A stretch of DNA of 64,000 nucleotides, taken from Membranipora membranacea (lineage: Eukaryota; Bryozoa; Gymnolaemata; Cheilostomatida; Membraniporidae). Positions 1 through 63,200 of the stretch are shown piece after piece. The translations under genes and the position numbers were made by a program. Numbering within the stretch: the first letter of the stretch is position 1; the number at the start of each line of letters is the position of its first letter. The DNA lies in assembly GCA_914767715.1 (NCBI GenBank), contig OU612065.1:29514001-29578000 (forward strand). Direction: 5' to 3'. Under the pieces are notes generated by a model. That model was not told the DNA's origin, searched no databases, and saw only the letters and a list, made by a program, of their open reading frames with translations.

Positions 1-1521
1 TGTGTTTATAGATTTGCCACTTCCTATAAACAGATGCCATACAAAGCATAAAATGTCATATCTGCTCACATGAAGGGAAATAGCGGAAAAGATTCATCAT
101 CATAAACTGAGCAATGAATCTGCACAGCACGTGCGATTTGAAATAATGAGAAGCAAATTTTGCTACTGACTTCTTTGCGGATATGACTCTGATGATGATG
201 CTGCTGAATTTTCTATGACGAACAGGTTGTTGTCATTTTAATGATATGAGTTTTTATAACGATTGTAAGTCATTAACAATGTATGTATAAGTGTTACTAT
301 TCAAAATAAATGTGATTGCACTAGATTTCTAACTGGTGGCAACAAGTTACTGGTGGGCAAGTGGTCATCATGTCATCACTGGTGCCAATAAAATTCCTCT
401 CACACGCTGTGACAATCATGTCACTCGGTCAAATGAAGTTCATATTAAAAATGAATAAATAAAAATAAAAACAATGTGATTATAATGCCAGTTCTATCAA
501 GTTTTACAATTTTCTTGTTTGTGTATGGTATGTATGTATGTATTGAACTAAACTTAATTCATTGGTTTTATCACCGGTTGTTAGGCAGAAATGGTTGATT
601 GATTAAAAGGTTCGGTTTGGTCAAAAGAAGTCATGTCCTCTTTGTTTGGTAGGAAACAACTTCACCTCATAAATTTGCAACAGAAAAAAACACACTTTAC
701 ATACCACCAGGAGACAACAACTCTCACCATGAATAGTTAACAGAGTAACACCATGGTAACTCCCTGATGGTAACACATGGTAACTCCCTCGACAGAATGA
801 CCGTGTCTGATGAGGAACAAATGTCAAGGGAAAAGTAGCACCAGAGTTTTGGTGATGGGTTCTGGTGTTACCTTTTCATAAAATCGCCACCTTTATATAA
901 AAAAATATTGTTATTTTGAGAGGCTCATTGTCTAAATTATAAAAAGTTAGTGCTGGTTTAGCCTGTCTTGACAAGCTTTCCTATTTCATGAAGCAGGAAA
1001 CAAAGCCTTTAAAATCCATTTATATGATCTCAGTCAAATGTTTATTGATATGACAGCAGTATATGTTATAAATACAAAGTCAAGTACAAGTCACACGTCA
1101 CACGTCAGAGCATCCACATTATTTGAGCAATTTTATTAAATTTCAGATCAATGTGTACACAACTTCAATTTACTAGGCTGTCGTCAATGCCCAAATAGTA
1201 CTGGGAATCATTAGGCTTCAAAGAGCTTGAGCAGAACTTGACACCGAGATGCAGCCCAAGTTGCACACCTCAAACATTGCATCTTAATGTCAATAAAACA
1301 TCACATATTCATATTATATTTCCATATCATATTTTACCATATTTTTAACCAATTTTCTGGTACATATAAACTGTGCATAGACTTCAACCAGATTATGTCA
1401 GATTGTATCTTAGACTATGGAGAATGGATAAGCTGGGAAGAAATCTTACAGCGTGTGAACTTAATGGAATAAATTCAGGGGGGAGCAACTCAAATGTTTG
1501 TAAATTGGATCAAATTTAATC

Positions 1522-1557
1522 CAGGGAGGGTGGGACACACCCTCCCCACCCTTCCTG
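1522..1557. mobile_element. 36-bp hairpin insertion, CAGGGAG family
   Basis: The element begins CAGGGAGGGTGGG and ends CCACCCTTCCTG, so it folds on itself. It is flanked by the perfect 7-bp direct repeat TTTAATC at 1515-1521 and 1558-1564. The repeat is read as a target-site duplication. Together with related copies near 3657, 6515 and 62452 it defines a family of ultra-short non-autonomous elements. The mobilising transposase is unknown. Confidence 0.75.
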
Positions 1558-2083
1558 TTTAATCTAATGTCTTAGTATCATTGTACCGTTAACAAGGCCA
1601 GTAGTTTTACTCATTTATGGATGCTCTCAATAGATGTTGTAATCTCTGACTTGTAAATTCATCTACTCAACATGATGACAATATTCATCAAATATAATAG
1701 AGCGGTCTAAACTACTCATATTAGCAGTTTTTTCTGTAGGCTACAATTGAAAAATGTGGCAAAATCAAATGATTAGCAGGATCATAATTTAGCCAATTAT
1801 TTTTAGCGATATGATATAAAGAAATTTTAAGTCCGATGACAAGTTCCTATCTTTTGGTTATGTACTTATATCTATATAACCCAACTTGATACTTATATTG
1901 TGCTGGGACAATGAGTCGGAAGTTAGTCTTTGGGTAGCATCAGAAACAGCAAATCCTGTTGCTTCAGGCATTAACCTAAAAATGGAGGATAAAAAATCTT
2001 GTCTAATCCTCCTACGGCAAGAGGGTGCGTATGGGACAGTGAGAACAGCATTGATATTGTTGACACTATGGTCCTACTGTCAT

Positions 2084-2118
2084 CAGGGAGGTCAGGAGAG
2101 TATATCCCACCCTTCCTG
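2084..2118. mobile_element. Hairpin, CAGGGAG family, decayed flanks
   Basis: It starts CAGGGAGG and ends CCCACCCTTCCTG, like the copy at 1522. The flanking heptamers CTGTCAT and CTGTTAC match at five of seven positions, so the target duplication has decayed or is not real here. Family membership rests on the terminal sequence. Confidence 0.5.
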
Positions 2119-2211
2119 CTGTTACTGTACATGAGTGTGAAACCTATCATATATACGTAGACTGATAACTCCTAACATCAATAATACCTACCAGTAACAG
2201 TGAGACCAGAG

Positions 2212-3240: not shown

Positions 3241-3656
3241 AATATATTTATACATTTTGATTTATTTGGTAGACAATAATGATAAATATGGTAGATATGC
3301 TTATGATAAATAATGATATTAATAGTAATAATAAGTAATGATACTGATAGATGTGGTGGAATTACAACACAACATGATGCCACCCACTTTGAGAAGACCT
3401 AATATTAGCACAACACTTATATGTAAAAGTTTGGCAGGCAGACTAGACTATCATGTGACTAATTGACATTTTATGGCTGATATCGTGTCCAGTATTTGGT
3501 TTATATTTTAATAAACAGCCATCAGTGTCAAGTTTCTTTCAGATATTTTCTGATCTTCCAACTCCTCAGATAATGTTAGGGGTCACTGGATTGTAAGACT
3601 TGTCTTTCAAGAGCCTAACAAATTTCAAAAGCAATGATCTGAATTGTCCCTTGTAT

Positions 3657-3689
3657 CAGGAAGGGTGGTTATATATCCCACCCTCCCTG
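3657..3689. mobile_element. 33-bp hairpin insertion, CAGGGAG family
   Basis: It begins CAGGAAGGGTGG and ends CCACCCTCCCTG. The flanking heptamers CTTGTAT (3650-3656) and CTTGAAT (3690-3696) match at six of seven positions, consistent with a slightly decayed 7-bp target duplication. Confidence 0.65.
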
Positions 3690-6514
3690 CTTGAATTGTT
3701 TCAAAAAGAATTTGTCAATAAATGTTAAAGTTGTGTTCTCTTTAGTTATGTGCACACAACTCTTAATATATATGTCCAATTATTCTATCCTCACTGATAT
3801 CAGGAGGGTGATATAAGGCATTATATCTACAGAGGCATCATTATTGTATAACAGCTAGAGTTGAATCATTAGAATGCAAACAAATAGAACAATTAAATGT
3901 GGACAAAGGTATTGGCTCCACACAAGACATATAAACAAGCATTATAAATAAACTCTTGAAGAGTATTTAAATGCCTATGGTACCAACTGATGTGTCACTA
4001 TGTACTAACTGTAGCTAACACTTGTCTCGAGTCTTCTGTGCAGTTTTGCATATCTATGGAAGGTTCTAAGGCTCTCAAGTATAACTGTGACAGATATCTG
4101 TGATGACCTTTCTGCTCAAAGAGGCGGGCACAGAAAGCTTGTGATATCTTATTGGCACAGCTAAATCCTTTGTTGACTTCACTTCAAAATGAAAACAAAC
4201 AATAATTACATGGATGACAGTTTGAAAGCTGCCAAGTTGGCAGACCAGATAACTATTTTGAACAGTATTTTTCAGTACAAGCAGGTAGAATTTGCTAGCT
4301 ATCACTTATGCTTGGCCATCCATTTACATTCTTTAGACAGTGATCAGAAAAGGAGACTGGGAACAACTCTGACAAATTCGCAAAGTTTTTGCTCATACAG
4401 TACTACAGCTCTACACCCCTCCTCCCTCCAGGAAATGTGACTGTCTATCTGTCTAATCCCATCGAGGTATCTGACTTTTCTGACTCATGCATTTTTTCTC
4501 TAAGCCCAATACTCTCCATTCATGAAAACAACACCTTCAAACTAGCTACATCCTTTAATTTGACAGCACAATTTCACATCAAGATTAATTAGAACCCTTC
4601 AAAATCCAATCACCTGTCATAAAGCTGTCTTCACACAGAAGGGTTTCATATTTTTTGGCTGTTTAATAGTTTAAATTGAAAATCATATTGACAATTTGTC
4701 ACAGGCCCGTCAAGATAAATGTTGACATATACAGTGATTATGAAATTGCAGACCCAAGTTGATATCACGTTTTTTCAAACCTTGATGTTAGGGCGTTCTC
4801 TGTAAGTATCAAATTAAATTATCATGCATAAATTTTATATCAACTCAAAGCTGAAGGCTTTGATTAAAACGATATCATCAGTCAAAATTAAAAGCAGTAA
4901 TGGGTGTCTGTACTCATGTTTGAATAAATTTAACCCTCAGATGAAGGAAGTAAGAACAACCGCCACTTTGACACTTTGACCATGACATATGCATATCCTT
5001 ATGTGTGTCAGTACGCCAGAGACTATAGATATCTAAATTCTCTGATTCCACTGTCTGGTGTGACTCAGTGAAAAGTGGACACTCTCAGATGTTGATCGTT
5101 AGATGAAGTTATCAGTGGAGAGGAAGCAACTCTGAATGTAGGCAAATTTTACCAAACTGTTGATCTTGTCAACCTATCAATGGCAACATTGACCAGTGCT
5201 TTTTTTTGTTTTCCTTAGCAATATTTTGGAAGAATGGCTTATCAATCTTGCTCAACCCTTGTCAGCCTTTGCAGCTTGTCAGGTTCACCAATTAATTTTG
5301 TTTGTGCATGGTCCCATCTGTACAAGTGACTTGATTGGCAAATAAAATTAATATAATTTTAATTATATATATTTCCCTATCCAATTTATATTAGTATTAC
5401 CTTCCATGAACCACACCCGCCAAGACTAAACCATAAAGCGACCAAACCCAATATGATAAAAAAATTAATGACTCCCAGATTTTCCCATTTACCGAAATAA
5501 ACTCAAATAAATGTCACAGTGACATCGAGATTAAACTATTATCATCTGTATCTCCGATGCTAGACTCAATTTAATGTGAGTACCTAACATGTTCCCGCCC
5601 TTAATTAATGAAAATGAAGTCGTGTTGTGACACCAAATTCCGTCTGACAGTACTCATACTAAGTGAATTAATTCACTCTCTATCTATCAGAGATATACAC
5701 GCAATAGTATATGACGTCATCAGTGTGGGTAAATGTATCAACCAACCTGCATGTTCTGACTCTGTCAAGAATGTTGAAACATTGGCGTAGATTTGCAGTG
5801 ATTCTGTTATAACACTCTCGATTATCGTTTATTTCTACAACATAACAAGAGGACAATTAAGCGGACATGCCACAACCAACGTGCTGCCAGCGACAGTAGA
5901 AACACCGGTAATGATGCTACCATAACTCATGAGGGAGTTAGAAAGTGAAAAATGTTCATCTTGACAATTGGTTTGTACTTGAATTTTTTTTGATTTTTCC
6001 CAAGAGAATAACGAAAACTGACCGGACCTGTAGATGCTTCAATATTTAAACAGTGCAACAGATATTTTGTTATTCTGATTTTGAGGGAGGGTAAGTTGAA
6101 GTGCTAAAGCTCTGCCTGGGTTGTTTGTAATGGCATTCCATGATCATAGTTTTAATGGAAAGCCAGTGCAAACAAGATTTTGATCTACATGTTATGCTCT
6201 AATACCAGATAAATTACTAACATATAAGAGGAAGTTAACCTGAAAATAATACACAAGATCTAAAAGAGATTACTCACACCCACCCTGCTAACACTCTTAC
6301 CTCAATGTCTGGGCTTGTTAATCATTTTTAAAATGTGATTATATTATTAACATATTTATGATTTTGTTTTCATTGGCACCTATGGCGCAATACAGATTAA
6401 CACCATATTAATATCAGATACATACTAATATCAGGGAAAGTAACCTCGCAGATATTATACAGAGTTGATAGGTGACTGATAATAAGACAGAGAACCTTGA
6501 AGGTTTGGGCTGAG

Positions 6515-6544
6515 CAGGGAGGGGGTATATCCGCACCCTCCCTG
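6515..6544. mobile_element. 30-bp hairpin insertion, CAGGGAG family
   Basis: It begins CAGGGAGGG and ends CACCCTCCCTG around a TATA centre. It is flanked by the perfect heptamer GGCTGAG at 6508-6514 and 6545-6551. This is the smallest copy in the window and one of the clearest duplications. Confidence 0.75.
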
Positions 6545-8383
6545 GGCTGAGATAGAATGGCACAAATAACTTGTCAGTAGGGAAATAGCTTCTTGTAAAA
6601 TTGTAACTATACTTTTACTGCCAAGTCATTCCCTCATACAATTTCAATGTTACTTGTCATAAATATTGTTGGAATTTTTCATGACTAGACGATGCCTAAC
6701 AAGCAAAAATGTTCATGAAATTAAGACGAGTGGAATGATTTACTTCTTTCAAGGTTTCCAATAATCTGTCAACATATGACTTTGCATTTCCTGCAGGTCA
6801 CACCATCAATCGGAGGTCACAATGTCAATGTACCTCAGTACCACACATTATGCCCTAAATGTGAGAATCAAGCTTTCTCAAAGTTGCACTACTCAATTAC
6901 ATCTTTGTTGTTTTCTTTTTAAAACACGCTGTTTTACTGGGACTACAGTGGAATTTCTTAAGACATATCCTCCCAATTTGTATTCCTTATATTCTAAGAC
7001 TAATGCCAATTCCTCTTTCTTATAAACAAAAGAGGGCTGTGAGTTCCAAGTATCCAATATGCTCAAAGTCAATGTTTTTATAGATAATTAGGTGCCGTTT
7101 CCCACATCAGAACAAAACAATATTGTTCTCAATCGATTTGGATAAATATTTGATAATATTGACTGCCATACAGAAGGAATAAGCCATATCTATTTTTGTA
7201 TTCAGAGATGTGAAGATTTCTCACAAAAGGTGAGAAGCGCATCTTTGAAATATTTATTGGTACAAACTGACCAAAGTTGTCTGTCCTTTTGCCATGTGGG
7301 GATAATAACACTACTGTTGACGCCCAGACAATTTACTATAATTTGTCATTGTTTTTTATCCAGGTTATAATTGTAATGTGAGTCATAAACTGACACTTTA
7401 GAGATGATGTTTTGGTGAAGCATTTGAAGACAATCAAAGGCCAGCGGCAATGTAGGGTTTGAGGTAAAGAAAACACCTTCCAACCAAATTCATGATTGAG
7501 ATTAGTTCATTCAACCAACAGCCTGAGGCAAAACAATATCAGTTCTGTGTCAGTTATGTACTCTGTAAACAAACCGAAATAATCATTGTATTATCTTTTA
7601 TAGCGGTTAAAAACAATGATCACATTTTTAACCCTGACCAGCATACTATTACAAAATTTGATCTGCTTTTCTCATGAATTTGAAACCAATCAGTTATTAT
7701 CCTGCTATAGTTGTGTAAGCCAAGTTACGATTCTATTGTTTTTCTATTCTTATCAAAACCATTGTTATTCTTAATCGAAGGACCATCCAAGTATGAAACA
7801 TGCAGAGTGCGTGAGCTAGAATGGGACTGCACAATACATTGGAAATAGTTTTTTGGCAGACAGACCACGGTGGAGTGAGCTGGCAATGTAACCATTGATG
7901 AATCATTTCCTAACAATAATCATTGCACCAGAATGGCTACAAGGACATCACTAGCATACATACACATATCATAGTCTAAGTTACCAAATCAATTCAGGAA
8001 AAAGGAGCTATTCGTTATTCGTTACTAGACTATTTTGCCATTTCAGTCGCTGAATCAATGTAAGCATATGCTAGAGAACTTCCCTTCCGGAACCAACTAG
8101 TTCAAGCTATCACTTTCCGTAGCCTTAACCTTGGCTTAAAAAAGCACCTGCCAAAAATAGCCTACCATGTCTGGAATCACATAAACTGCACTCCAGACAG
8201 GAACAATCCTCAGATTACAGTAAGTCTATGGGAGATTATCAGATGAACATGGATCCAGGTCGATGTTTACCAGGAATTAATGAGGCACAGACAACACGTT
8301 TTTTTCGTAATCTGGACATTAATATACCATTAGCTCCTATCAGAACGATGGCACCATCGAAGATTAAGTTTCCCTCTTACTAA

Positions 8384-8643
8384 CAGGACTGTAGTCTAGA
8401 AAAAATGGTAGGGGAGGCAGAAGTCTGAGGCGAGTCTGAGGCATCACCAGTAACCTCCTCCCGAGCAAATTGAGGCATATAATAAACAAATGGAAGTTCA
8501 ATTATAGTGTTTTTAGGCCACTGTATTTAGCTGTCTAAAATTATGGTAAGCTGTATCTATCAGGGCCGTATTCCTAGGGGAGGCAGAGAGGCACTGCCTC
8601 CCCTAGGAATACGGCCCTGATAGATACTGCTTACCATAATTTT
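8384..8643. mobile_element. CAGGG-CGTAG inverted-repeat element with long palindrome
   Basis: The left part, from CAGGACTGTAGTCTAG, resembles the element at 53515 and shares the stretch AAAATGGTAGGGGAGGC just inside the end. The right part is a near-perfect palindrome at 8537-8643 with arms of about 50 bp and a loop of about 7 bp. Each arm contains CAGGGCCGTATTCCTAG, which is the element's own terminal sequence. This looks like a copy rearranged into a foldback by terminal duplication. No clean target duplication is visible, because the flanks are part of the palindrome. Confidence 0.65.
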
Positions 8644-17117: not shown

Positions 17118-19138
17118 ATAAGATGTGCATGCAGGCAAATCTTTAAAAGGAAACCAATTCACATTTCCTATGACATTCTTTTCATGACATCATCGCACAG
17201 GTCACAAACTGTTGAGCTGTGATGAGAGCAATGACAAACATTACAGAGGTCTCAACAATCAGAATTAAACAAAGGAAAGACAACTTTAGTTTATGTGTAG
17301 AGTAATGGTATTAACGGTGCATTACGATTGGCTCACCTTCAATTGAAGACAGCCGCCTGATCACCCTGCATTAGCATAAGGTCATCTGCTCCAAGCTTCA
17401 TCGGCAAGACTCTTGGAACGGTAAGCATCTTATACATATCATGGTTTTCACCTGTTGTAAGGAAAAATTGATAAGTGTTACTAAAGGTAAAACCAAAAAC
17501 AGGTTTGTACGGGCTGCTTGCCCGATGCATGAAGGTGTTATGCCGATAAACATTATTCTGTGACAACACAGTGATCACCAGTTAGTTCAATTAGTCCATC
17601 TATAATGTATAATATACCAGATGTACATCGTAACTATTTTAGAATGGGAGGGAACACTTTTGGTGGAAGCCACTAATGCCAACCCCCTTTACCCCATGAT
17701 AACAGAGTAGACTGATTCCTTTATTCTCGAAGCACTTATACATTCTTCTTGGCATTGTGTACTTCATTTATAGAGCTTTGGAACGAAAACAGGATCAGAT
17801 ACTTCAATTCAATGTGGACACCAACAGTCTACCGTTATCCTGAGCCAGACAGAAGATTGTGACACGGACAAATTTATAAATAACTTATTATGTCAACTTC
17901 ATCATAATTTGCTGATCAGTGTCACATAAACAGATGGGACCATGTGGTTAATATGCAACAGTTATAATTAAGCTCATGTAAAACAAGCCGATGTCAAGAA
18001 AAGCAAGTGACAGTAAACAAAATAATCATTCATATTCAGATTCAAAAGAGCCATAATCTGGAAAGATGTTTTAGGACGGTGGCTAATTTGTCACAAATCA
18101 ATCTGGGAAGAAGCAATAAATGCTGACCACAATTTTCAAAAGTACTGAATAGGCAATGAGGCTATGACAGATAGACATGAATCATCATTATTGTTTTAAA
18201 ATGCAAGTCAATGTTCGCTATAGCTGAATAGTGGTGGGAGGTCTAAGGTACTAGTCGCTTTGGAGGCGTGGGTTTGAATCACACCACTTTCAAAGGCTGT
18301 TAGCCAAGCTAATCCATATCCCAATGTACTGTACTGCAGACACCTATATCTTTCCTCCGCAGATGAAAGAGATAACAGAGATCAAGCCACTGAAGACCTT
18401 GAAATTTCTAGACTGTCACTGTCCTTTGGAATTTCTGGCTATCCTTGCAATCCTTCCAAAGTGCAGATGTTAGTTACTGGTATTTATCTTCCTAATTTTA
18501 AGGGCAGATAAATCCTAAATATCAAATATGGCGTGAGACGATCAGTTTGAACAGGGAGCTCAGGACTAACTTCCTGGTTTGAAAAAATCCCAGCTGGATT
18601 CAGAAATGTTGCTTACTGAAACTTTGAAAAAGGTATTCCACTATTCGAGCTTGGCTTTTCTCAAATCATTGAAATTACTGAATGGCATGAAGACTAACCT
18701 TTGCGTAAACATGTTTTTGTGACTGTCATACACATTTGAGAACAAAGTTTGATTTATCGCTAGATGGAAATAAGTAATGCAAAAATAATAAAGGTAGGTT
18801 GTTGTCACAGCAGAGACCATAACCAATCAATATTGGGCTTTGGTTTTAGTGCTAAGTTGTGCCTGGTGTGCTGGTAGTCACATTCCATAACAAATAATAC
18901 TGACAATTGAATGCCGGAGTTACCAGCGACTCAGACCAAATTTAAGCACTTTCACTAGGTAGACAGTAAATAAAAAAAAGCATTGAAAGACTGCACACAA
19001 AAAGTACCCATGAAAATAACATAAATATCAAAATATCAACAAAAAAGATACTGGCCCAAGTAATCAACAGAGTTTTTGTGTTTCAAAAATGTGCGAAGAA
19101 AATTGAGATATCTCCCGAGTCTTTTGATAAATAATGTC
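17118..19138. other. Intergenic region between convergent genes
   Basis: This lies between the 3' ends of the plus-strand nuclear-protein gene and the minus-strand nucleoside hydrolase gene. One candidate terminal exon on the minus strand (17451-17339) has an acceptor-like sequence and a stop, but no partner exon could be found, so it is not called. No repeat stands out. Confidence 0.5.
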
Positions 19139-19144: not shown

Positions 19145-19229
19145 TCAGGATGAGTTTGAGATAACAGATCATTTTCACATATACTTCCCATTATTCTCAG
19201 TCCAACATGGTGGGGCGGTGATTTTGTAT

Positions 19230-25759: not shown

Positions 25760-25929
25760 TTGGTATCTTTCAACAGTAGAAATCGTTTACTAACAGAAAT
25801 AAAGCAGGCAACTCCGGCCAATGACAAAATTTTAACATAAATGATAATAATTTGAACGGAGCTTATGTAAACCTCAGTAAAGTCAATTCAATTTACCACA
25901 TTGGATTTAGAGTTAAATAGCACTCTGCG

Positions 25930-43159: not shown

Positions 43160-43274
43160 GGAATGCCATTCGTTTCGACCCCACTATTGTTTCGTCCCCA
43201 TTTTTGTTTCGTCCCTGCACATGTTCGTCTTTTCTCAGTTCGTCCCTATATTTGGTTGAACTCAGTTATAGGAG

Positions 43275-44710: not shown

Positions 44711-44756
44711 CAGGGCCAGCCTCTACAGCTGTGACTTTAGAAACCGTTGTGCCACA

Positions 44757-44870: not shown

Positions 44871-46592
44871 GTGAAAGCCTACAAACAACTTGGGCCCATG
44901 GGACTTACTTGTCTTTACTTTGCCAATGTCCAGCATATGGGTGGTTGATACTGTCTGCCTGTCTTAACAAGCTTTTAAGACAGGCTACAGAGGCCCATGC
45001 TTGGGCCATAGAAATAGGGAGTTTGTATCGATGTCTCTGGCTTGGGCTCACTCAAAATGTAACTTGACACTGCATGAGACAGGGACGAACTGAAACTAGA
45101 ACGAACTGAATAAGGGACGAACCAACAAGGGACGAAACAAAAACAGGGACGAAATGGAAACAGGGACGAACTGAAGTGTTTCCGACATATTGCTAGAGAT
45201 ATCACATCAATATAGGCTCTCTATTGAGTGTCGACTTCCTAGAAGATGTGGTGGGCAATGCGCGCCTTGTTCCTGATGGTTGTTTAGCTCATGTCAATGA
45301 TTTGCTTGTATCGCTTAACCAAACAAAGCGATCAAAATCATTTCACTAGTCAGACTAGTGGTCTGTCAGTCACACAGTCCTACTCCTTGGTTGGCTTGGA
45401 GTGGACTGCAATGTTGTTGGAAGTCAGGTGAGGCTAGGGTTTACAAGCACTTTGTGTGGCATCATAAATATCTGTGCTTGCTTATTAAGTGAGTATTGAT
45501 AAATCAGGTAAGTGAGTAATCAATAAACCAATCAAGATTATCTAGTTGATTAACTAGTTGAGTTAAGTTGGACAAAATAGTTAAAAAGATTTTACCTGTC
45601 CTGTTGTTTGAACAAAATGATTGATTGTTTGTTGTGGCTTTCTTCCAACAACTCTAAAGATAACTTCCCCTATGACATCAGCTTGGAACTTGTAGGCTTT
45701 TTTAGGTTGAAATTATCTTTCTAACTGAGGAATGTCATCATGGTCAGAGATGAACAGAACAGGAAGGAAGAGGAGGAAAAATTTTCTCCATCGACTGAAA
45801 AAAATCTTCAACAATTTATTACAATGATAACAATTATTACTCAAGTCAATGGAGATTTGACTGTCAGAGAAACATTTGAAGACCTCATTGTTAACTGTTG
45901 GCATATAAAACAAATGCCACAGGTCATAGTATCATAATTGTGGTTCATTGAAAGCTTTCATTCTGCGCATGCTCAGCTCTGGGCATGAGATGATCTCTGC
46001 AAAATTGAGCCTCGGAATTCCGAAGCCATCTGATTGGCTACCTGCTCTGGTGACATACTTCCCAAAGCGTGCGGATTTGTTATTACTAGTTATCCTCTCT
46101 TGTCATTATTAGCTGATTTTGATTGACAGTTTATGCAGGGGATATCCCATTTCCCCTTTCCAAAGTTGCAATCAGAACCCAAATTAAACTCATTGTTCTT
46201 GCACATGCGCGAATTCAAGTCACGCATGATGCATACTTAGCCTTACGACACCTGCTTTGTGGTAATGATAACCTAGTTTATCAGTGATCTACATGCCCAG
46301 TCAGATCACGAGAGTCAGTATGGAAAGCTTTATTGTGTGACGTGTACTTTCTCAGACTGTATTTATCTAGAGTTGTCTGATCATCAATAGGGAAAAGGCA
46401 ACTCTATAATGGTACTCATTTTAGGGTAAAAATATCAGACAACTTAACTGAAAGCTCTTGTTTTCCCAAGATCTAGATCAAACTTGATTCAATTTCCATG
46501 CAATTGGATCACTCCAAGATGTAAGTAGTTGGCTAGAGAACGACTACAGTTACAGCGAGGCTAGAACAAGTCTGAACAGCCGCCAGTCCCAC

Positions 46593-46633
46593 CAATGAAC
46601 TAAACCTCATTTCATTTTAGGTTTAGTTCATTG
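46593..46633. mobile_element. 41-bp hairpin insertion, CAATGAAC family
   Basis: The 14-bp arms, CAATGAACTAAACC and GGTTTAGTTCATTG, are identical to those of the copy at 22597 but enclose a different 13-base loop. The perfect heptamer GTCCCAC flanks it (46586-46592, 46634-46640). Two independent insertions with the same arms and different duplications establish a mobile family. Confidence 0.82.
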
Positions 46634-49056
46634 GTCCCACCTCTCTGTCAAGTGGAGATCTCGCCAAACAGTCATGTACCCAAACTTTTGTGGTTGGACT
46701 TATTGCCCGTAAGTTGCCCTTCAGCACTGACTCGCTAGTACACTATTCACTGATTGCTCACAGCAAACTCCTTATTCCAAACGATGATTTGCTTCCTCTT
46801 GCATGTCTTGGGGTGCACTGTATTGTAGGAGTACAACCATGTCATTGCTTTTTGGTAGGCAAACACCAATGATAGTATTTAGTGTCAACCAGCAACATTT
46901 GCCATTGACGTTCTTCCCAGCCAACATTAAGCTATGAGGACAACGTCATATAAGCTGTATTGAATCAAGGGACCTGGTAATAAAATGACACAATGGATAT
47001 AATTTATCTAAGTTCATGCTCGGACAACTATATTACTACAATACCTCAGGGTTGATGCGCTGTTTTAGTCAGAAATTATGATGAGGAATAATATCATGGT
47101 TAGAAATAAACCTGTGTCCAACAGAGAGAAAGCAGGTCTGGTCATTTGTATAAATATGTCAACCACTAAGACCGAAGGCCAAAAACAATGCAAATCAATA
47201 AGGGCAAACATGAATGATGATAAGTGCATAGATAGTAATGGTGTTATGTTGTTCCATCGATCAAAATAGAGTGATTTCATGTGTAAGAGATTCACTTTTA
47301 GGGGGCGGAACCCTTGAGATTATGCATTCTCTTTAGTTAGTGATGTCAGCTCCCTCAAGAAATCGTTGTTTTCAACAAAGAAAACAGCGTTCTTTCCCGT
47401 CCATACGAGTTTGTTGAACTTGTGAATCGTACTTTACTCCCACTGAAATCATAATGTACAATGTACCATCTTTATATATTGACAAATCATGTGACCGAAT
47501 ATTACCACTTTTACTCTATTATTGGGAGTGTAATTGTCTTATTGGAAAGCATATTTTGGCGCTAGTCTTGGCTAATTTCATAGATTTTTCTCACTTTATC
47601 TATTTACTTTTGGCAGCATTTATGCTAAACCGTCATTGATTAATTAGGGCAAAGTTGCTACAGCAAACACTTGGGGCATGCTCCAAATGCGTTGGTGGCG
47701 CACGTGTAAATTTGTTTTGAGAAATTTGAGTGACTTACAACTACGTGACACGGACAAATGCTTTGGTTTGGCACATTGATTTATATATATTTATACGGCA
47801 TTATAAATCAATGGTTTGGCTTGGTCATTAAAAGACCAACTTATAACAGTGATTTATACCTGTCATGGAAATAATTAAGATCTTATCTAGAAAGGTATAT
47901 CAGGATTTCACAGAATTCATGATTATACAGAATTCTTTTAATTCTTTATTTTTGCAAATAATTTTTTTGAGCAATAAATAATTTTAATTGATAGGGAATT
48001 CATAGAGTAGACATTTTAGTTTGATAATGTAGCTTTTTATCTGTCTAGACAGTCAAAAAGGGTAAAATGATAACAGGAGAAATATTCTGTGAACATAAAT
48101 TCATATTGGTTTTACCCTCCCTGATTTAACGAGAAAAAGAGGCTTCTGAAATAAAATTCATGATTTATATGCTATAGATAATATTAAGCGCTTAACGTAG
48201 AGAAGAAGGTGGTTATAATATCTTGTTTGATGGTGTGTTCATATGTACATTTAGTGTAGTCCTAGTTTGAGTTGGTTTGGCCGGTTGTTCAAACCAAAAA
48301 CACAACGCAGGAAGAGAAGTCAGGCTATGGTCACATTCAAAGCCGCTGAGAACGATCATTGGGCCAATATCTTCACGGTCTGTTCCTATTTTTGGCCATT
48401 GACCAAGAATCAAAGAATATGACAAGGTCTCTCTTTCTATCATGGAATCATATTGACGACATATCTTACTGTTATCTGAATGGAACAACAAAATTAGAAT
48501 TGACAGCTTATTACATTGAGCGTCTTCAGGTCAGCTACCCATATGCGTGTGACATGTTGATACAGTATGAAACCAAGAGGTTGCCAATTTTTTCAAGTTC
48601 AATGTTTGAGATTGGAATGGAATTTATTTTCATGCATCGATGTCACTCTGACAGTCTTTGCAAAGAAAATTGGTTTGATCTCACACAGTGAGTCCCATGT
48701 TCAAGGTTTAATAGTCATCAAGAGGAGAAGATATCGGTTGAGTTGAGTGACTTTTATTCAATAGGCTTTAGGTTTCGTGAATACAGAAAGGTCAGGCTTG
48801 ACCATAAACATTAAAATACTTATATTTATTTGTCTATGGGCTTGACTCAAGAATGAAAAAAATCAACAATTATTCAACTAACAATACTGCAATACTGCAA
48901 TACTGCGATGTTACACAGTATCCCATGCAATGCAATATAACAAGATTCCAGGGGAGATAAAGCCAATGAGTATGACTCCTTGATCAGGTTGATGATGCCC
49001 AACTTTGAGTTCATCTGCTTTCGAAGTAAATGGTGCATTGTGGGAAGGCTCATTAG

Positions 49057-49089
49057 CAGGGAGGGAGGGATGTTGTCTAATTCTCCCTG
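49057..49089. mobile_element. Hairpin, CAGGGAG family, no clear target repeat
   Basis: It starts CAGGGAGGGAGGG and ends CTCCCTG. Only the outer seven bases pair cleanly and the flanking heptamers differ. It is probably an old copy. Confidence 0.4.
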
Positions 49090-50109: not shown

Positions 50110-53100
50110 TACATATTTTTAGCGATCCATTATGATGATTGAAATGATCTGAGGCTATTTGATTGGACCTTGAAATCATGGCTATAAGTATATGTTTTAA
50201 TGAGGAAAGATAATTAAAGTATTGCACCATTCAAGCCAGGTAAAAAGTGGCTATCATCACTTCATTAAATATTGAAAATGAAAGTCCATTCACGCAGTAG
50301 ATGATGAAATTAATAGTTACATATTCTTTCGAGTTTTTACAGCCACCTTTTAGAATATCTGATGATTTCAGTGCTCCCAATTTGACCAAGCAAATAACAA
50401 AACAGCATCATGAGGTGAAAAAATATGATTTCAGTCTAAATATCAGTTTGAACGCTATCGACCTCACTGCTATTGCTTACAGCTACAACTACCGTGCGTA
50501 ATAACATGGTAGCTGGCCATTTCCGTATGGATGACTTGGGGTTGAGTATACTATATAGCTTAAAGGGAGGGGGTGTGTATTGAAGAAAGAGAAAATGGAT
50601 CACAGTGACCAGGGATAATGCAGTGACATTCATTGATTGCTACACTGAGACAGACTAGCTACGAAGACTACAAGCACATGGCGATTTGGTCACAAACAAT
50701 AATACTTGGTTGAAATTCCTAAGCAATTTTGTGAAAGTTGGAATCTGATAGGCTAATAGCCTTTGTTAGACTTCTGTCATTGGTTGGCTGCTTGTTTAAT
50801 CTGTACACAATGAATCATTATTATTCTCTACTGTGTAGCTTATTGACAAAGTTTGCCTGTTCAAGCCTGGCACCCGCACAAGATCAATGCACCATTCTCT
50901 TATTGATTCTCACAAAGCTAAGGTCTATTTATCAGTTGTGTTGAGAAAATTGATCTGCCTGCAGCCTTCGGAATTTATACTTGGCGGCTGAGTTATTAAT
51001 CTGTGCGCAGCAGCGACCCGAAGAATAGATTCATTGGTGAGTATTTTTCATCACAATTTAATAATTTTATATATTTAACCCGATTTTACTAGGACATAGA
51101 TGGGACTGGGTAGGGTTTAGCTTAGGAATGGGGTCATTAGTATCACTGTCAATCATCTACAACTCTATTCTTATCCTCATCCTTATCCTGTCGCTTCACG
51201 ATGAAACTGCCATCAAGTTTCTGACAAAATGCCTCATCCTTTAGAAGTCTTTGTTTAGCCTTAGACTTGTAACGCTGTGCAACTGTACGCCAGGTTGGGC
51301 AGGGAATCGGATTTGAAGCTCAAAACATTGACTTCTTAATTCTCAACATTTTGACATTGTTCGCAGTTTCACGACCAACCCTCTCCCTGCAACAGATTCC
51401 TACACATGTCCCTCTGAGCATACTTTATAGTCGATGGTACCCTGTACAAGATTTGACATTTTGCCCTCAAACATTTCATACACATGGGTTGCGCAGGTAT
51501 AAGAGTCAGTCGTGGGCGTTTCGAAGTGTCTTTGTTGTGCTGAACTCGGCAGCATATTCCCAGTGGGTCGATCTCATGTGTGTATTATTCTAGAGGTATC
51601 TCGATAGACATTGTCTATGGGTATCTCAGGGGTTAAACTTGAAGGGTAGCTAATTGGGCAGGCTTGCAAAATATTGTGATAGCCGAGATTATTTGTGTTA
51701 ATTAGAGATTACATCGAGAGTGTTGTCATAATCCCGTCAGGTTAATTAGCGTACGCTTCACATGTGGGTATGCTGCAGCTGAATAACAGCAGGAAACAGC
51801 GTGTACTTTGTCTGCTGACGAACATAACTTTGAAATGAAAATAGACAATTGCGTGTTCTTCAAAAGAATGCACCAGTTCACATTGACCTCTTTTGGTTCT
51901 GCCCATAGATTTAGAGTACTATTATTAGGTCTATGGTTCTGCCCAGCATTTGGACGAGGTTTTTGGCTTCGATTCAAGGTTGAATGAACAACAAATGCAT
52001 GCTGGATCAACTGATTATTATCTCATCACCATTGCTAGTTCCTCCTTCCAGAAACACTAAAAGTAAAGAACCGGTTTATGATCCAGTTCCTGCAATAGTT
52101 GTGTCGGTCCAGAATGGAAAATGACATCTAACAGGGCCTAAGCCAACCGGTGGCTTAATCCTCTTGCCACTCTTTAATTTAACCGGACAAAGCAGTTAGA
52201 ACATCATCACCAAAACTTTTCACGATCGCTGATTATATATTGCTCTTTTTTTGCACTATAATTTCAAAGAGGTTGCGGAGGTCCCTGTTATGGTTTCTTG
52301 TAAGAGAGCTATAATTATATTACACCATTAAAGGGTGGGATGGGATCGTCTATGCTCTGACAATGGAATCATCATTGTTTGGGATGGGAACTTCATCATC
52401 ATCATCACTCAAGGTTGAATCGAAACAAATTGTAAGTCAGTTGCAATGAAGTTCTGTACTTTGGTCTTTCCGGCATGCAAATTCAACAGGACATTCCTGC
52501 GAGGTCTTTGACCGGGCCCGCCTACTGATGTGTCTTGCGGTAGAACTTGTTGGCAACTGTTCATGCTTACTATATCATGATAAAAGTTATGGTCTAGTGC
52601 TTTTTGTTGTTTTTTGAAAGTTTTCAAACATCGGTATCCCGCCTCAGGTATCCAGCCTCAGACATCTGCATCGTTGCGAGAAACCTTCAAAGCTACGAGA
52701 ATGCATTGCACAGATAATTTCACATGTTAGCAAAATATTTGGATTGCTGAGAAAAAAGGCAGACTGCGAAGGCTCAGAATGTTTTGACAAGATGGGTAGA
52801 GGAATGTAATAATAAAGCCTGATCTGACATATTTCAAAGCCTACAACAGTTCCTGAGGTGGCTTGTTGTGCAAAATGAGGGCCAGTTATGTTGCAGTCGG
52901 ACATGAGTGGCTTTGACCGAGTTCTGCTGTATTCTAAGCCGGTCGCTCCTTGTCTGTTCAAATTAGGCTCATGGCTATGTTCCATTATCAAATTCCTGAT
53001 CTCATTGCAAAATGGTTGTTTACCCTTTAATGGCAGGGCTCGGCAGTTCCAGCCAAGAAGTGTCTGTCATCATTGGCGGAAAGTGGCTTCAGTAGACATC

Positions 53101-55382: not shown

Positions 55383-56066
55383 CGGTAACTGTAAATTGCT
55401 GAACAGGCTGAACAGACTGAACAGCTGAACAGAATTTCTCCGACTAAAATTATTATTTGTAGTCATTTCTCTGGGTGACTATCACTTCTCAAACACATTC
55501 CTCTTAACCAAATGATTTGATGAGTCACTAAGTTCCTGTTGGCACCTGATATAACCAATTTAGGACAAGCAAATGAAGCAATCAATGTGCCATTTCTGAC
55601 AAAATCTGATGGTGTTCTGGAAATTGGACACCAGAAACATTATCCAGCTTAGTCTAAGTGCTCAGACTCCAAGGCGCAGGGAGTTACTTGCGCAAGCTAT
55701 CAAACTCCTTTTGATAGCTTGCGCAAGTAACTCCCTGCGCCTTGGAGTCTGAGCACTTTAGGATATATCCAGCTCAACCTTCCATCTAGCCAGTCTTAAC
55801 AAGCTTTGTTTATAATGGAGGGGGGGGGGCTACTTTCCATCCATTCACTAGTAGTGTAACAACGAAAAATTTACTGTGAATAAAATTGAAAGAAACCAAG
55901 GTGAATGCAAACTTAAAATAAATAATTTAATGAGAAGAATATAAAGAATTGTCCATGCTTAAGCAAAATTAGCCAATCATGTAAAGAATCAAACAATAAT
56001 AGTAGTCTGAGAAATTCTGTTCAGCTGTTCAGTCTGTTCAGCCTGTTCAGCAATTTACAGTTACCC
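55383..56066. mobile_element. 684-bp terminal-inverted-repeat element with 9-bp duplication
   Basis: Inverted ends GGTAACTGTAAATTGCTGAA extend about 60-70 bp and include four tandem CTGAACAG-type units. The nonamer CGCAGTGAC flanks both ends (55374-55382, 56067-56075), a duplication length common in Mutator-like elements. The interior contains a second element (55650-55765) but no transposase. Confidence 0.75.
55650..55765. mobile_element. 116-bp palindromic element nested in the 684-bp element
   Basis: Perfect 48-bp arms (AAGTGCTCAGACTCCAAGG outward to inward) enclose a seven-base loop at 55656-55758. The nonamer TATCCAGCT flanks the element (55641-55649, 55766-55774). It is younger than its host element. 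Confidence 0.75.
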
Positions 56067-58325
56067 CGCAGTGACGGGATCCAATTATCTTTGAGCCATA
56101 TTTGCCACTAATGTGAAGCAGCGTCTCAATTTCATTGCTGCCTCAGTTCTACTATACCTTCTACCGCATGATTCTTCTGTTTTCCTTTCTAAGTCCATGA
56201 GTTTATTGATTAAATAATATACAGCATAGCCAGTTGGGGTGTTTGCTGTTGAAGCATAGTGGCATAATCGAGTTAGCATTGTCGTTTTCCATCCACAGGG
56301 ATATTATTTAGCTATGCAACTATACTGCTAGAGTAAATGTTACTACCCTTCAGGCGGTCTGTAGTCGTACACAGCATGACTTGACCTACTCTCCTTCTTG
56401 GTCCTGTGATTCTCATCCGTTATAGTTATCCTAGATTTCAAACTCACGCACAAGTCAATCATCAGCTAGCCGGCTACTTATTAGACCCACTGTGTAATTT
56501 TGGGAACTAAATTGGACAATAATGGCTCAATAATGGGTCAAAATTCTTGTCAAGCTTCTGTTAAACCACAAATATGCGGGTAGGTTGTGTATTACTGAAC
56601 CTTGCCCAAAATTAATTTGAAGTGTTACAAGGAAGATCCCTCATGATTTGAAGTAATTTTGTTACCCTATTTCAAATTTGAAGTAGGTTAAGTACAAGTG
56701 TCTACTTGTCAATTGTGGGTTGTTCAATAATCTAACATCTAGGGACCTTATCTTTGCAAACACTGGCTAACAGAATAGTACATCTAGCAATGACTGCATC
56801 AAAATTGTTATCAGTTATCACCATTGCACATCTCATTAATTGTGACTATCAAAGGAATGACAAAAATCAGTCAGCAATTTGTGTTAGGAGTTCCTGGATG
56901 AATCTAATTGTTATAGTGCTGAGAGTTTTATTGTATGATGGAAATGTGTTTTGGGTTCGATATTTATAGATAGAAAAATAAGTTGCCTCTTGTCAAATCT
57001 GGCCATGACAGCATCTACCAATAGCTCGAAATGACTGTCAAATTTACCAAATGTACCATTGGTGTAAGGAAAAGTACACCTTTTATACGAGTTTGCTTTG
57101 TCATTCTTGAAAGGATTCACATACCTTGGCCGCGTGCCCAAAGCTGGCCGGACCGGTCTGTCTGCATGAAAATCCAATTACTGTGAACGTCAATCCAAAT
57201 TGAAATTATTACATTATATTATGCTTTTTAGAAAGCAAATTAATTGGCCCTGACCTAGACAGCTACATGCACAGTCCTTAGTTGATCTTATCTACTAACG
57301 AAACCTTGCATTCATATCATACTCAAAGATACTTTCACTAAAAACATGCAACAGAAGGGATTCCAAAATCCTATGCTGAATATATATACCAGTCACCAGC
57401 TGTCATAGGCCTGTCAGATTCATCATAAACAGCAGTCAGCAGATCTGATGCTATCATAGTGATCACATGATATAACCCCCAAACCTGTCTTGAGTCTGTT
57501 GGAGTAAGCTATTATTCAGGCCACCATGGAGAAGCACTCACAAATAACCAGTCATAACCACACAGATAATTACGACATGTTTTCTCGGCTGAAACTAGGG
57601 CGTCTAATCACTAGTAAATGAAAATACTGCAAGGTTGTTCAGGCACATAACCATAACCCACTAGACTATCGTGTTTACCAGAGTCTGTTGTGACAATAAA
57701 CATGTGCGATAATGTACTACTAACGTTGGGAATGGAAGAAAGTAATGGCTCTTCTTCTGCACGTTTACGATAGCTTCTATTCTGTGGCTATTGAAAAGCC
57801 GATATACACCACACCACAGACAAAGATTATAAATACTCATTGCCATAGTCATTGCCACAGATATGCTGTACTCTACCCTAGCTGAGAGTATTCTAATATA
57901 ACCGAAATGGCCATTTGTGGCTAAAATACCTGTTGTGTTCAGAAGTACATGCACATATTATTTGTGGCACCATGTGCGTTGGCTACAGAGTAGGTTGGTG
58001 TATTTGCCTTGATTGCTAAACACGACTCAGAGCAGACAATCAAGACGCGTGTATCTTAATGTCAGATGCCTTGAGGGTGTCTTGTTCATGTTCTATATTT
58101 ACTCGTGTTTATGAGTAAGTTAAGCTCGGTACTTCCAATGAAAAGTTAGAATTAGCTGCTTTTTATGTGTAATTGACTGTCATCGCCAATATCGAGAGTA
58201 TGTCAGCGAGAGTGAGCACAGCAAAAAGTGGCCTCAACCGATCACTTTGTATAATCATGCAAAAAAAGGTGAAGTTTCAAACCTTGTGTGTAGGGGCAAC
58301 TCCAGACACAGAAAAAATCCACATT

Positions 58326-58350
58326 CAGGGAGTTTAGGACAATCTCCCTG
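58326..58350. mobile_element. Hairpin, CAGGGAG family, short and decayed
   Basis: CAGGGAG and CTCCCTG flank an 11-base centre. No target duplication is evident. Confidence 0.4.
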
Positions 58351-59601: not shown

Positions 59602-59727
59602 CTCATTCATGTTCTCATCAACTGGGAATTCCAGAAAGTTGCATTGTGGGATACTTATATACAATTGCATATAAGTATCCCACAATGCAATTTTCTGGAA
59701 TTCCCAGTTTATGTGACCATAAATGAG
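59602..59727. repeat. ~126-bp palindrome built on GCATTGTGGGA
   Basis: The arms run CTCATTCATG, AACTGGGAATTCCAG, GCATTGTGGGATACTTATAT and back, nearly perfect in the inner 45 bp. The arm word GCATTGTGGGA recurs alone at about 11248, 49035, 58893, 58945 and 61453, which suggests a dispersed family with this terminal or internal motif. Confidence 0.7.
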
Positions 59728-60108
59728 ATTGACATAATCATGATAAGAATTCCAGATATAAATTGCCTTGTGGGAAACTTAGATACTTCCTTCTGTGCAT
59801 GTCATTAATTCGTATGGGTAGTTGGGATGGGATAGGAGTAGATCAAGCATGATCCAGTTTGCCTGCATTTAGGATTTGAGCCGCCGGCTCACCAGCGGAA
59901 TAGGAATGACTGGACTGCAAGCAAATTGGATCAACCTTGTTCTAGGATAGGACCAGAGCACCTAAATTATCTTTACAGCTTCTCAGAATTTATGAATCCC
60001 TGACACATTTATGATTTATTTCTAATTTTAGGTCACTGATCCTGTGCATTCATTAGGCAGGTGTACCTGAGACTGAGAGAGAAGTATTATTACCCTCCGT
60101 GTGCTGAA

Positions 60109-60216
60109 ATGGGTGGAAAATCTAGCAAGAAGCTGAACAAGGAGGATTTGGACTTTTTACTTAACAACACTAGCTTTACCAAACCACAGATAAAACAATG
60201 GTACAAAGGTTTCATG
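60109..60216 (+). CDS. Neuronal calcium sensor family protein, first coding exon (partial)
   Basis: The exon encodes 36 residues beginning [18 protein letters not shown] and ending [10 protein letters not shown], then a GTGAGT donor. Glycine at position 2 followed by a Lys/Ser-rich stretch is the N-myristoylation signal of the NCS-1/hippocalcin/recoverin family. [13 protein letters not shown] is the conserved start of its first EF-hand-like helix pair. Such proteins are membrane-tethered calcium sensors. An acceptor (TTCTAATTTTAG) at 60032 marks the 5' edge of this exon, so upstream 5' UTR exons exist. The next exon, expected to start with a DCPSG-like motif, was not found up to 64000, so the first coding intron exceeds 3.7 kb. 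NCS-1 versus hippocalcin-like cannot be decided from this exon. Confidence 0.85.
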
Positions 60217-63200
60217 GTGAGTAGCACTTTCAGAATAGCGCTATCTTAGACTTATCACGCAGCTACTTTTTTATCCAAAACATCAAAAGAAGCCGTGGGA
60301 TAAGGCTAGCACTATCTACTAAACTAGGTTACTTGTTATATTACATCGTTGTGATAAAATTGACTGTCACCCCACTTCAAGCTCTTGACAGACAAGGATA
60401 TATAGTACCCTCTGTTACTGAAATGAAAACCATGTAAACAAACTCGTGACCACAAACTCAAATTCCTGGTAACAAATCCATCATAGCTTTTTCACGCACC
60501 AACAACGTAACGTAACATTACACAACTTAAAAACTAGCCAGTTTGGGCGTTTGGATTGTGGCATTTCAGACTCAGCAACAAACTTTGCTGGTACCTATTC
60601 CCGCTCCCTACCTATGCTCGCCGGCTGCTGCCCTTTATGCAGCCTGTACCCTGTAGTTTATAAAGCCATACAGGTACCAGTAGCACTGCTCTAGTAATTC
60701 ATAAGTTGAAAATTTTGAAACATGCGTGCTGGAAATGACTAGGAGAATTTGAAGTGTGACTACCACTGTTTACTACAATTTCGGAGTGCGACATGAAGAT
60801 CTGAATTAATCGATGGTGTTAGTTTCCTGTTGTGTTCTGGGGGTGAAATACGCATATTGCTATTGACAACAACGACGAGGTTATTGTTTCTTACACCGAT
60901 TAACACCAGCTAGATCCTGCTCTTTAGCCTAGCTGACTTTGGCAGAAGATAGGGATGTCGTCGCCCCATGATATTGTTGTAAGATTGAAGGAGGGTAGTT
61001 AGGGACTGTAATGTTGCCACAACCGATGTGCTGGTATTCAATGTATATGGTTCTACAGACCGAACATTGTGGTTACCCTTCACAAATATGATTTATAAGA
61101 ACTTTGTTACCGAGTCAACATACATCTTATCACTGAGGAAATTATCTGTAGTATTTGTTTACATAACAGTATGAAAGCTGTGAGGGTGACAGTGTTATGT
61201 GCAGTCTGTCTGTGCCAGGCCTTACGTTGGACTGATGAAATAAAAACATCTTCAGACTGTTGCAACTGTCACCGCTGGTAGTGTGACATTGTAAAGTTGA
61301 GACCACTCTGCTGCAGTAATGCACAAGCCTAGCCTACACCTATGGTGCTCCAGCGAGAACGTGAACGCCCAGAAATGTTTGTAATTGACCTAGTTGAAGG
61401 GCTTTAACTGTGCTGGGATAGCCGGCAGAAGCATTTCCTCATAACCACTTTTCCCACAATGCAATGCTCATCTGTTGCAAATGCCTCTGCTTTAAGTGTG
61501 TCATTGTAAAATGGAGGGCACTTGTCATAGTCACATGCTAGCCTAGCACAATGAGTCCACTAGCGAGGCGTGGACAGACAGAAATCATCCTATATGACTC
61601 ATAAATTGTGTATATGGCCAAACTTCACTTTCTTTCAGCGTATATCGCACATAACATAGTAGGCCTGGGCTTGGCTAGAAATGCAACTAATAACTGACCC
61701 GAATTTATGACGACAAGCAGGGAAAGCGACAAGCAGGAGAAGTGGAGCGTTTTTCTTTTTTTTGGGTATCATAATAACTCTTATCCTGCTGTGGTGCAAC
61801 TATTGACAGACTGCTACCATTGTCTGTACTGTCTGACCAGGTCATGATACAAAAATATGCCCATCTGCTCTTGTTATTGCCGTAAATCAGTAGTATGAAA
61901 TGTCAACGGTAGCAAAGATTATAGTAGTACGTCAGATGAAATTTGGAATTTGGGAGCGTAAGGGACTTCTCTATAAACTTACATAACTTATTTCTAAGTC
62001 TTCAAAAATCCATCTGTCAAATATAGGCTATACTCTATTTGCTATTTGAAAACTCTACAATCTCTTGGGTCAACATTACATGAATTTTCATATTTCTTTG
62101 CAAGGAATAATAGTCATGGAAAACATGTTCTGGTTGCCCATGCTTTATGAATAGATTGAAGTGTTATTTTTAAACTAAGCAATAACGAAAGAGTAATCCT
62201 GTAATCCAGTCTGAATAGAGAATAAAGAATTGCTAGATAAATGAATGTACATTGATTGTCAATGCAATGAATTTGAAATGTCTACTAAGACCAGTCGCCA
62301 ATAAGTGCAAACTTATATCTAAAAAACAGAGGAGCAGTTTGAGAAATCTAGAAAGAAGATAGTCTGAACCCATAGCATACTCATCAGGGAGAATATGGGG
62401 AGGAGATCAGGGAGCGCCAGCAGACCCCATTTATAACAGACTCTGTGGAATCAGGGAGTGTGGAACATGTCCCACACTCCCTGGTGGAATGTAGATTCAA
62501 GCAGGTTCACTGGGGCGTCACTCTTCCACTTGACGCCTTGTGGCAACCAAAGTGACATCTCCAAGCTCATCATTCCCGCAAAGAATGGACCTAATTTTTG
62601 ACCTCCTTCATTACGTTTTTCCCCTGCATTGGCAACACAATGCTCCTCACCAAGCGGCAAAAGACTCTTCCTATCTCATGATGCGCTATTAGAACTTTCA
62701 TAAATCCCAATTCAAACTATCAAACTGATATGACACCTCAGTATGAACAATGTTGATGCTCAATACTAAATATGAATAATTTAAAAACATATTTATCATT
62801 ATTATTTTTATCATTTGATTCATACAATGCATGTTGGTGTGTTTGTTCCTCCAGCCCCTCTACGTAATGACTGTGTTGGCTCTGTCTGAATGGTGGGGTG
62901 AAGAAGAGCCAAAACCAGGTCATAGGTCTATGGTACTTTCAGGAAGGTACATTTGATTTTGGCATCGCCTTACTTATAATGAATGTGGGATAATGCATGA
63001 GATGAAAATTTGATTACCAGATGTGTTTGCAAACCGGTTTCCCCCTTTCAATCAGAAATAATTTTCTATTATGAGAGGAGACAACTCTCTACTTATAGGC
63101 CTATAAATATAATTTACCTGACTCACTTGCTCAGAAGGTCGGTCGGTGTTAAGTATGTCACACTTATAATAGTTAAACATACAGATATTGCATTCCTGCA

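Follow-up and report, generated by a model that had tools for sequence, protein, structure and literature searches.

P-superfamily excision as the probable origin of short CAGGGAG hairpins in Membranipora membranacea

Excision of P elements has been followed in recombination-deficient Drosophila melanogaster, where the joints given in Table 1 of PMC2895639 are built from two copies of the 8-bp target that enclose no more than 17 nt of each end, the ends meeting at a microhomology or across 0-15 nt of filler. In that table 44 of the 66 isolates keep both target copies (lengths 7-44, median 30), a single joint accounts for 14 isolates, and one joint (three isolates) keeps one arm together with only the last bases of the other; the 22 isolates missing one target copy wholly or partly were excluded from the length comparison made below. 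The 17-nt stagger is named among the features separating P from other characterised cut-and-paste elements (PMC7776569). Described relatives include Galileo, of the P superfamily, with 7-bp duplications (8 bp in three copies) of the consensus GTATTAC (PMC4168063) or, in another species, GTAGTAC (PMC2775673), and the P-type miniature inverted-repeat transposable elements (P-MITEs) of Anopheles gambiae, which are non-autonomous P relatives with inverted ends and target duplications (PMC1562414). Here we analysed a 64,000-bp stretch of the bryozoan M. membranacea (C1:29514001-29578000 in the 339,339,785-bp genome of 18 contigs; hereafter the window), in which hairpins of about 30 bp with CAGGGAG ends lie between short duplications, and we consider it likely that they are excision scars of P-superfamily transposons, that is, traces of movement rather than moving units.

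According to this model, a P-like element would insert and duplicate 7 bp of its target (CAGGGAG, CAATGAAC and CAAGGAG types) or 8 bp (CATAGA type). The transposase would later excise it by widely staggered cuts (17 nt in Drosophila), so that at most about 17 nt of either end stayed on the flanks, and end joining would seal the two tails, often through short microhomologies or a few copied filler bases. The product would consist of the duplication, an arm, in some cases filler, the reverse arm and the duplication again, and would resemble a tiny hairpin element. The Drosophila scars are alike in having the duplication on both sides, at most 17 nt per end, microhomology or short filler, and similar lengths; however, they arose in the laboratory, in repair-deficient flies, from a single engineered insertion whose duplication is 8 bp, whereas several end types with mostly 7-bp duplications occur here. 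Galileo likewise makes duplications of 7 bp, or in some copies 8 bp, whose second base is T and sixth base A (T2 and A6), but it consists of long fold-back elements with long inverted repeats, and no whole CAGGGAG-ended element was found here. P-MITEs have 8-bp duplications and a common interior and retain under 100 bp of either P end (PMC1562414), whereas hardly any interior is shared among the hairpins and no more than about 18-19 nt of either end remain in them.

An initial annotation of the window had listed eight CAGGGAG hairpins, three with perfect flanking heptamers and one matching at six of seven positions. All eight were found at the starts given, with these flanks, and a ninth that had been missed lies at 18552. 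Four of the nine have a perfect 7-bp duplication, namely 1522-1557 (36 bp, TTTAATC; 1515-1564 with the duplications), 6515-6544 (30 bp, GGCTGAG; 6508-6551), 18552-18576 (25 bp, GTTTGAA; 18545-18583) and 62452-62483 (32 bp, GTGGAAT; 62445-62490), the last being made of two near-perfect 16-nt arms that abut. The flanks of 3657-3689 (33 bp; 3650-3696) agree at 6/7 (CTTGTAT and CTTGAAT) and those of 2084-2118 (35 bp; 2077-2125) at 5/7 (CTGTCAT and CTGTTAC), while three hairpins have no target duplication: 2212-2243 (32 bp, 3/7), 49057-49089 (33 bp, 3/7) and 58326-58350 (25 bp, 1/7). The size of 30-36 bp proposed earlier thus applies to most of them, the exceptions being 18552 and 58326 with 25 bp each. 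When the flanks of the nine hairpins were cross-paired (72 pairs), the maximum identity was 5/7, reached once. The high density that had been pointed out is real, as the CAGGGAG motif occurs 27 times in the window against 4.7 expected, and exact CAGGGAG-N(5-30)-CTCCCTG pairs four times against none in 100 shuffles. The window contains 1,168 pairs of CAGGGAG-type ends separated by no more than 12 kb, and among these only the four short ones had an exact 7-bp duplication.

The same pattern extends over the genome, where the exact CAGGGAG-N(5-30)-CTCCCTG motif has 2,197 places against 11 for the reversed control. The flanks were compared at the first 50 distinct places on contig 1, which are not a random draw; among these 50 matches listed, 29 had perfect 7-bp duplications, 10 agreed at 6/7 and 2 at 5/7, and two of the places (L022 and L028) are copies of one duplicated segment. 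The cross-paired control of 2,450 flank pairs gave 0.08% perfect and 0.7% at 6/7, so the heptamers match far above chance at the places listed, and their earlier interpretation as target-site duplications of a cut-and-paste process, with hairpins made of transposon ends, is upheld. Counts of this size also dispose of chance or low-complexity hairpins, the poorest explanation, whatever the G-rich arms and two short asymmetric CAGGGAG matches (13836 and 760-766) that look like plain tandem duplications may suggest, since 8 units were observed in the window scan described below against 0.08 expected, besides the 2,197 places against 11 and the 29 perfect flanks of 50.

Target choice connects these units to the P superfamily. 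Among the nine exact 7-bp targets of the window, one of which belongs to a 704-bp element described below, position 2 is preferentially T and its mirror, position 6, preferentially A (13 of 18 when symmetrised, p 0.002). The 29 genome targets form an independent set for which this preference had been chosen beforehand from the window; 26 of them carry T2 (binomial p 8e-11) and 23 carry A6 (1e-7). A palindromic target preference, which is a P-superfamily trait, is therefore present here. The 8-bp duplications of the CATAGA-type units have G1 and C8 in all four window units and in the scar at L007, G1 alone in L025 and C8 alone in L026; the two whole CATAGAG elements described below have G1 and C8 in one copy and C8 alone in the other.

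Units of this kind are not a single family, a point missed by the initial annotation, because CAATGAAC, CATAGA (with an 8-bp duplication) and CAAGGAG types have the same layout. A scan of the window and of 50 shuffles for units that begin with CA, end with TG, measure 14-60 bp and have inverted ends over 8 bp (up to two mismatches) yielded eight exact 7-bp duplications against a shuffle mean of 0.08 (maximum 1) and three of 8 bp against 0.04. Other duplication sizes gave 5 against 2.48 at 4 bp, 1 against 0.50 at 5 bp, 0 against 0.22 at 6 bp and 0 against 0.02 at 9 bp. With any end letters there was an excess also at 5 bp (34 against 17.6) and 6 bp (17 against 5.5), and consequently the peak at 7 and 8 bp is this sharp only under the CA..TG restriction. 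The window units comprised CAGGGAG (4), CAATGAAC (3) and one CAAAGA/CAATGA unit at 57821, together with CATAGA units at 45007, 48803 and 51904; one more, at 51603, starts with GATAGA. In the 200 kb around 20 of the 50 genome places, 14 more CA..TG units had exact 7-bp duplications, against raw counts, taken with no shuffle baseline, of 8, 2, 3, 3 and 1 for duplications of 4, 5, 6, 8 and 9 bp; two of the 14 are the L022/L028 segmental duplication, and the set adds the CAAGGAG type. Except at 9 of the 50 genome places and 3 of the 9 window hairpins, a 7- or 8-bp duplication directly abuts the inverted ends, as it should in a P-superfamily excision scar.

In length the units resemble the fly joints, with a median of 30 for the 44 P-excision isolates and 32 for the 12 exactly flanked window units (Kolmogorov-Smirnov p 0.60), or 32 for all 17 window units (p 0.26). 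Units with exact duplications measured 16-42 bp over all types, and the median of the 50 genome places was 27, within the 19-44 bp permitted by the pattern. Interiors were compared in strand-collapsed, exact-motif copies from all fetched loci and the window: the 31 exactly flanked copies (20-38 bp, 5 of them perfect palindromes) had 28 distinct interiors, one of the three repeats being a segmental duplication, and all 54 copies, flanked or not, had 48. Some units retain one arm only and nevertheless lie between both heptamers, namely GTCGAAC-CAGGGAGAATG-GTCGAAC (L014 5578), CTTTTAC-CAGGGAGAATG-CTTTTAC (L030 8609), a 26-bp unit at L018 4984-5009 and an 11-bp CAAGGAG unit at L023 3446-3456; the fly joint with a single full arm and the terminal few bases of its partner is similar to CAGGGAGAATG (PMC2895639). 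Asymmetric matches occurred at 10 of 176 CAGGGAG, 4 of 95 CAATGAA and 3 of 69 CAAGGAG occurrences, against 1 of 16, 0 of 49 and 0 of 19 for the reversed motifs, and only the four named units are relied upon because several others overlap symmetric units, are near-symmetric or are plain tandem duplications. Five distinct unpartnered arms, compared by eye, had no common sequence past the arm. An excision scar should retain arms of no more than about 17 nt with short filler and diverse junctions, as these units do, and the joints appear to have been made by microhomology and copying. The cut in this species would lie about 16-18 nt deep, and its exact depth is not fixed because some GGGTGGGATATA copies have arms that seem to extend as far as roughly 18-19 nt. 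At three loci one 7-bp target is present three or more times around two units (GTTATAC at L018 4946-5016, CTTTTAC at L030 8516-8626 and GTGCCTG at L036 116-184), a pattern that a second insertion into an already duplicated target would produce.

These data bear directly on whether the units are themselves mobile, as the initial annotation had supposed for elements of about 32 bp. Tiny MITEs of 20-40 bp, excised and inserted by a transposase acting in trans, would account for the target duplications at most of the 50 listed places, the 2,197 exact places, the two inverted ends of most units and the pair of filled and empty paralogues described below. A 26-bp unit, CAGGGAGTTTGGGACCAAACTCCCTG, also occurs at 5 different targets of the 50 (two at 7/7, three at 6/7). 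However, apart from this recurring unit the copies lack the common interior that a master copy would have passed on, and duplication-flanked copies do not always hold both inverted ends. Mobile 32-bp units fit poorly because the interiors are mostly distinct, the lengths spread over 16-42 bp, filler was copied and one-armed units stand between duplications. Transposition of Drosophila P reportedly requires terminal stretches of at least 138 and 216 bp (PMC1562414), and 16-25 bp could not plausibly seat two transposase subunits. We take CAGGGAGTTTGGGACCAAACTCCCTG for a favoured joint, comparable to the fly joint behind 14 of the 66 isolates, although a tiny mobile unit would look alike, and we regard tiny MITEs as unlikely.

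Evidence on the source of such scars came from a family whose transposase could be recognised. At least 102 matches to PF21788, which represents the GTP-binding insert of P-type transposases, were obtained when 150 of 173 candidates from the genome were scored; there were none in 14 control genomes, which say little because these were not chosen animals. Two whole P elements (C2, C10) of about 5.97 kb, 99% identical and with a PF21788-type domain inside, have ends that read CATAGAGTTATCCCCC (CATAGAGTTATCCCCCTAGAGCTAT), starting with CATAGAG and identical over 25 bp in one copy, and lie between the 8-bp duplications AGGAAAAC and GGCAAAGC. A scar of the same family is present at L007 794; its 25 bp consist of 10 nt from one end and 15 nt from the other, and it reads GGTGGCAC, then CATAGAGTTA joined to GGGGATAACTCTATG, then GGTGGCAC again. 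The CATAGAG family, represented by one scar and two whole elements, thus gives a single complete chain from an element encoding a P transposase to its scar. The CATAGA units of the window have only about the first six or seven bases in common with this family. They are read with 8-bp duplications because the whole P elements show duplications of this size, and a reading with CCATAGA ends and 6-bp duplications was dropped for the same reason.

An empty site was sought as a further sign of gain, and one paralogous site of a related type was obtained. In L067, a P-transposase relative, the unit CAAGGAGTTTGAAAGTAACTCCCTG lies between two copies of GTTTGAG, and in its paralogue L068, 93.5% identical, a single GTTTGAG lies between the same close flanks, which shows the gain of a 25-bp unit plus heptamer, whether or not a larger element was there in between. 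The point at which L067 and L068 diverge has no inverted ends. When the window was compared with itself, none of its 18 sites lay in a paralogous stretch; the expectation of empty sites was borne out at this single pair only. A second P-transposase family of eight copies (L059-L066), about 90-99.9% alike, has at least one internal TGA in each matched stretch, and termini were not found for the 762-aa frame of L069/L070.

Another superfamily, such as hAT or an undescribed one with 7-bp duplications, is the next explanation to be weighed. hAT elements have 8-bp duplications and the end motif YARNG, which CAGGG, CAATG and CAAAG ends fit too, and no whole CAGGGAG-ended element was found to decide the matter. 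However, hAT excision brings small changes at the duplication and is not known to leave 10-18 nt of each end, the 7-bp duplications with T2 and A6 match Galileo, and a transposase domain identifies the CATAGAG family, whose units are laid out alike, as P. We consider such an origin improbable, and the CAGGGAG, CAATGAAC and CAAGGAG types presumably also derive from P-superfamily elements. For CAGGGAG and its 7-bp relatives, of which no whole element is at hand, this assignment is drawn from target preference, layout, company, junction diversity and the absence of longer copies.

Longer copies were searched in 264 kb (the window and 200 kb chosen around CAGGGAG places) for ends lying directly on a duplication, with one mismatch allowed. 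Pairs 61-10,000 bp apart on a 7-bp duplication numbered zero in this sequence for CAGGGAG, CAATGAA and CAAGGAG ends, against 24, 9 and 23 short pairs, respectively, of which the CAGGGAG and CAAGGAG counts overlap because a mismatch was allowed. This result bears on a third explanation, in which the tails were not joined directly but gap repair following excision broke off and left copies with internal deletions. Abortive gap repair is named as a source of defective P-type copies (PMC4168063), and it would likewise keep both ends and duplications; the 241-bp CATAGAC pair mentioned below could be such a copy. However, it should leave very variable end lengths, yet 12 of the 17 window units measure 30-36 bp, and the zero count above 60 bp also stands against it, so that we give gap repair very little weight.

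Several observations count against excision scars of P-superfamily elements and have to be set beside the evidence above. No whole element with CAGGGAG, CAATGAAC or CAAGGAG ends was present in the 264 kb, and zero whole elements against 24 CAGGGAG-like short pairs is an odd ratio for an ordinary transposon. For CATAGAC ends there were 6 short pairs and a single longer one, which measures 241 bp and has an 8-bp duplication (L029 5544). Conversely, a CACAGAG element has whole copies at 25056 of the window and at L017 6105 and no evident scars. The outer ends are intact with no duplication at hairpins 2212, 49057 and 58326 of the window and at 9 of the 50 listed genome places (4/7 or less); joining of the ends of two different insertions would explain them. 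The recurrence of CAGGGAGTTTGGGACCAAACTCCCTG and of a 23-bp unit at 2 targets of the 50 also belongs here, as do the length of an approximately 80-bp CAATGAAC unit with filler copied thrice (L030 8500-8640) and the length comparison with flies, which is small and cannot prove identity. Finally, the P end motif is CANRG, which a CAATG end does not fit.

Most interesting is how far scars outnumber whole elements. It is conceivable, though we hold this only tentatively, that a P-like transposon with 7-bp duplications is known here almost only by its scars, with thousands of excisions and hardly any surviving copies. Near-complete removal could follow from very frequent jumping with end-joining repair, or from a host-tamed P transposase that excises copies. 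The 704-bp element at 25056-25759 (25049-25766 with its 7-bp duplication TTGGTAT), whose CACAGAGTAAGG... ends are identical over the first 39 bp, is a whole non-autonomous CACAGAG element and shows that the window does contain a complete element flanked by a 7-bp duplication, with ends that bear some similarity to those of the hairpins; it may be P-MITE-like.

If excision did produce the hairpins, what looked like a new class of 30-bp mobile DNA becomes a known reaction recorded at genome scale, with thousands of independent break-repair products at sites of known sequence in a 339-Mb animal genome. The use of microhomology and the copying of filler could then be read directly for a germline that has not been studied. 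If a P-like class known almost only by scars did exist, these would be a natural record of how end joining resolves breaks in the germline. Scars of this kind may also be listed by repeat finders as miniature transposons. The literature searched offered no genome-wide description of P-type scars in nature, a search that comprised titles and the beginnings of abstracts with partial coverage and is no proof of absence.

The remaining units of the window are distributed as follows. A CAATGAAC-type scar of 18 bp lies at 19998-20015 (19991-20022; duplication GGTGCAG), and its duplication is less secure because the unit abuts a short tandem repeat at 19972-19997. Scars with 7-bp duplications lie also at 22597-22627 (CAATGAACTAAACC type, 31 bp, CTCTTAC; 22590-22634), 46593-46633 (CAATGAACTAAACCT type, 41 bp with an 11-nt filler, GTCCCAC; 46586-46640) and 57821-57854 (CAAAGA/CAATGA type, 34 bp, CCACAGA; 57814-57861). 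On the forward strand, 24190-24213 may be a damaged CAGGGAGTTTGGGA scar from which the outer right arm is gone, with no duplication. The units with 8-bp duplications are the CATAGA-type scars at 45007-45039 (33 bp, GCTTGGGC; 44999-45047) and 51904-51935 (32 bp, GTTCTGCC; 51896-51943) and the CATAGAC-type scars at 48803-48838 (36 bp, GGCTTGAC; 48795-48846) and 51603-51619 (17 bp, GGTATCTC; 51595-51627), the last with G for C at the first base. Local hopping was considered, as 5 of 6 GGG-type CAGGGAG sites lie within 5 kb (p 8e-4) and all 4 CATAGA sites within 6.9 kb (p 0.005); it was undercut by the unclustered distribution of all 17 sites (p 0.31) and by like neighbours not being in excess (p 0.14), and is a hint only because the groups were picked after being seen. 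A Pfam scan of 78 stop-to-stop frames of at least 80 aa found no transposase domain in the window, and viral contigs and prokaryote genome contigs scanned for the arms gave nothing useful, six viral 16-mer matches being judged, though not computed, to be chance.

Other features of the window were noted in passing. Degenerate frames of a non-LTR (non-long-terminal-repeat) reverse transcriptase lie at 43272-44731, and a blast search of this stretch against phages gave no match. Tandem duplicates at 19225-22964 and 26998-31650, 80-97% alike in blocks, probably hold an inosine-uridine nucleoside hydrolase gene. An element of about 684 bp at 55383-56066, with a 9-bp duplication CGCAGTGAC and long inverted ends GGGTAACTGTAAATTGCTGAACAGG..., is Mutator-like in layout. 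Near-perfect palindromes of 103-126 bp occur at 55656-55758, 8537-8643 and 59602-59727 and are possibly fold-back elements, the first of them having CAGGGAGTTACTTGCGCAAG within its arm.

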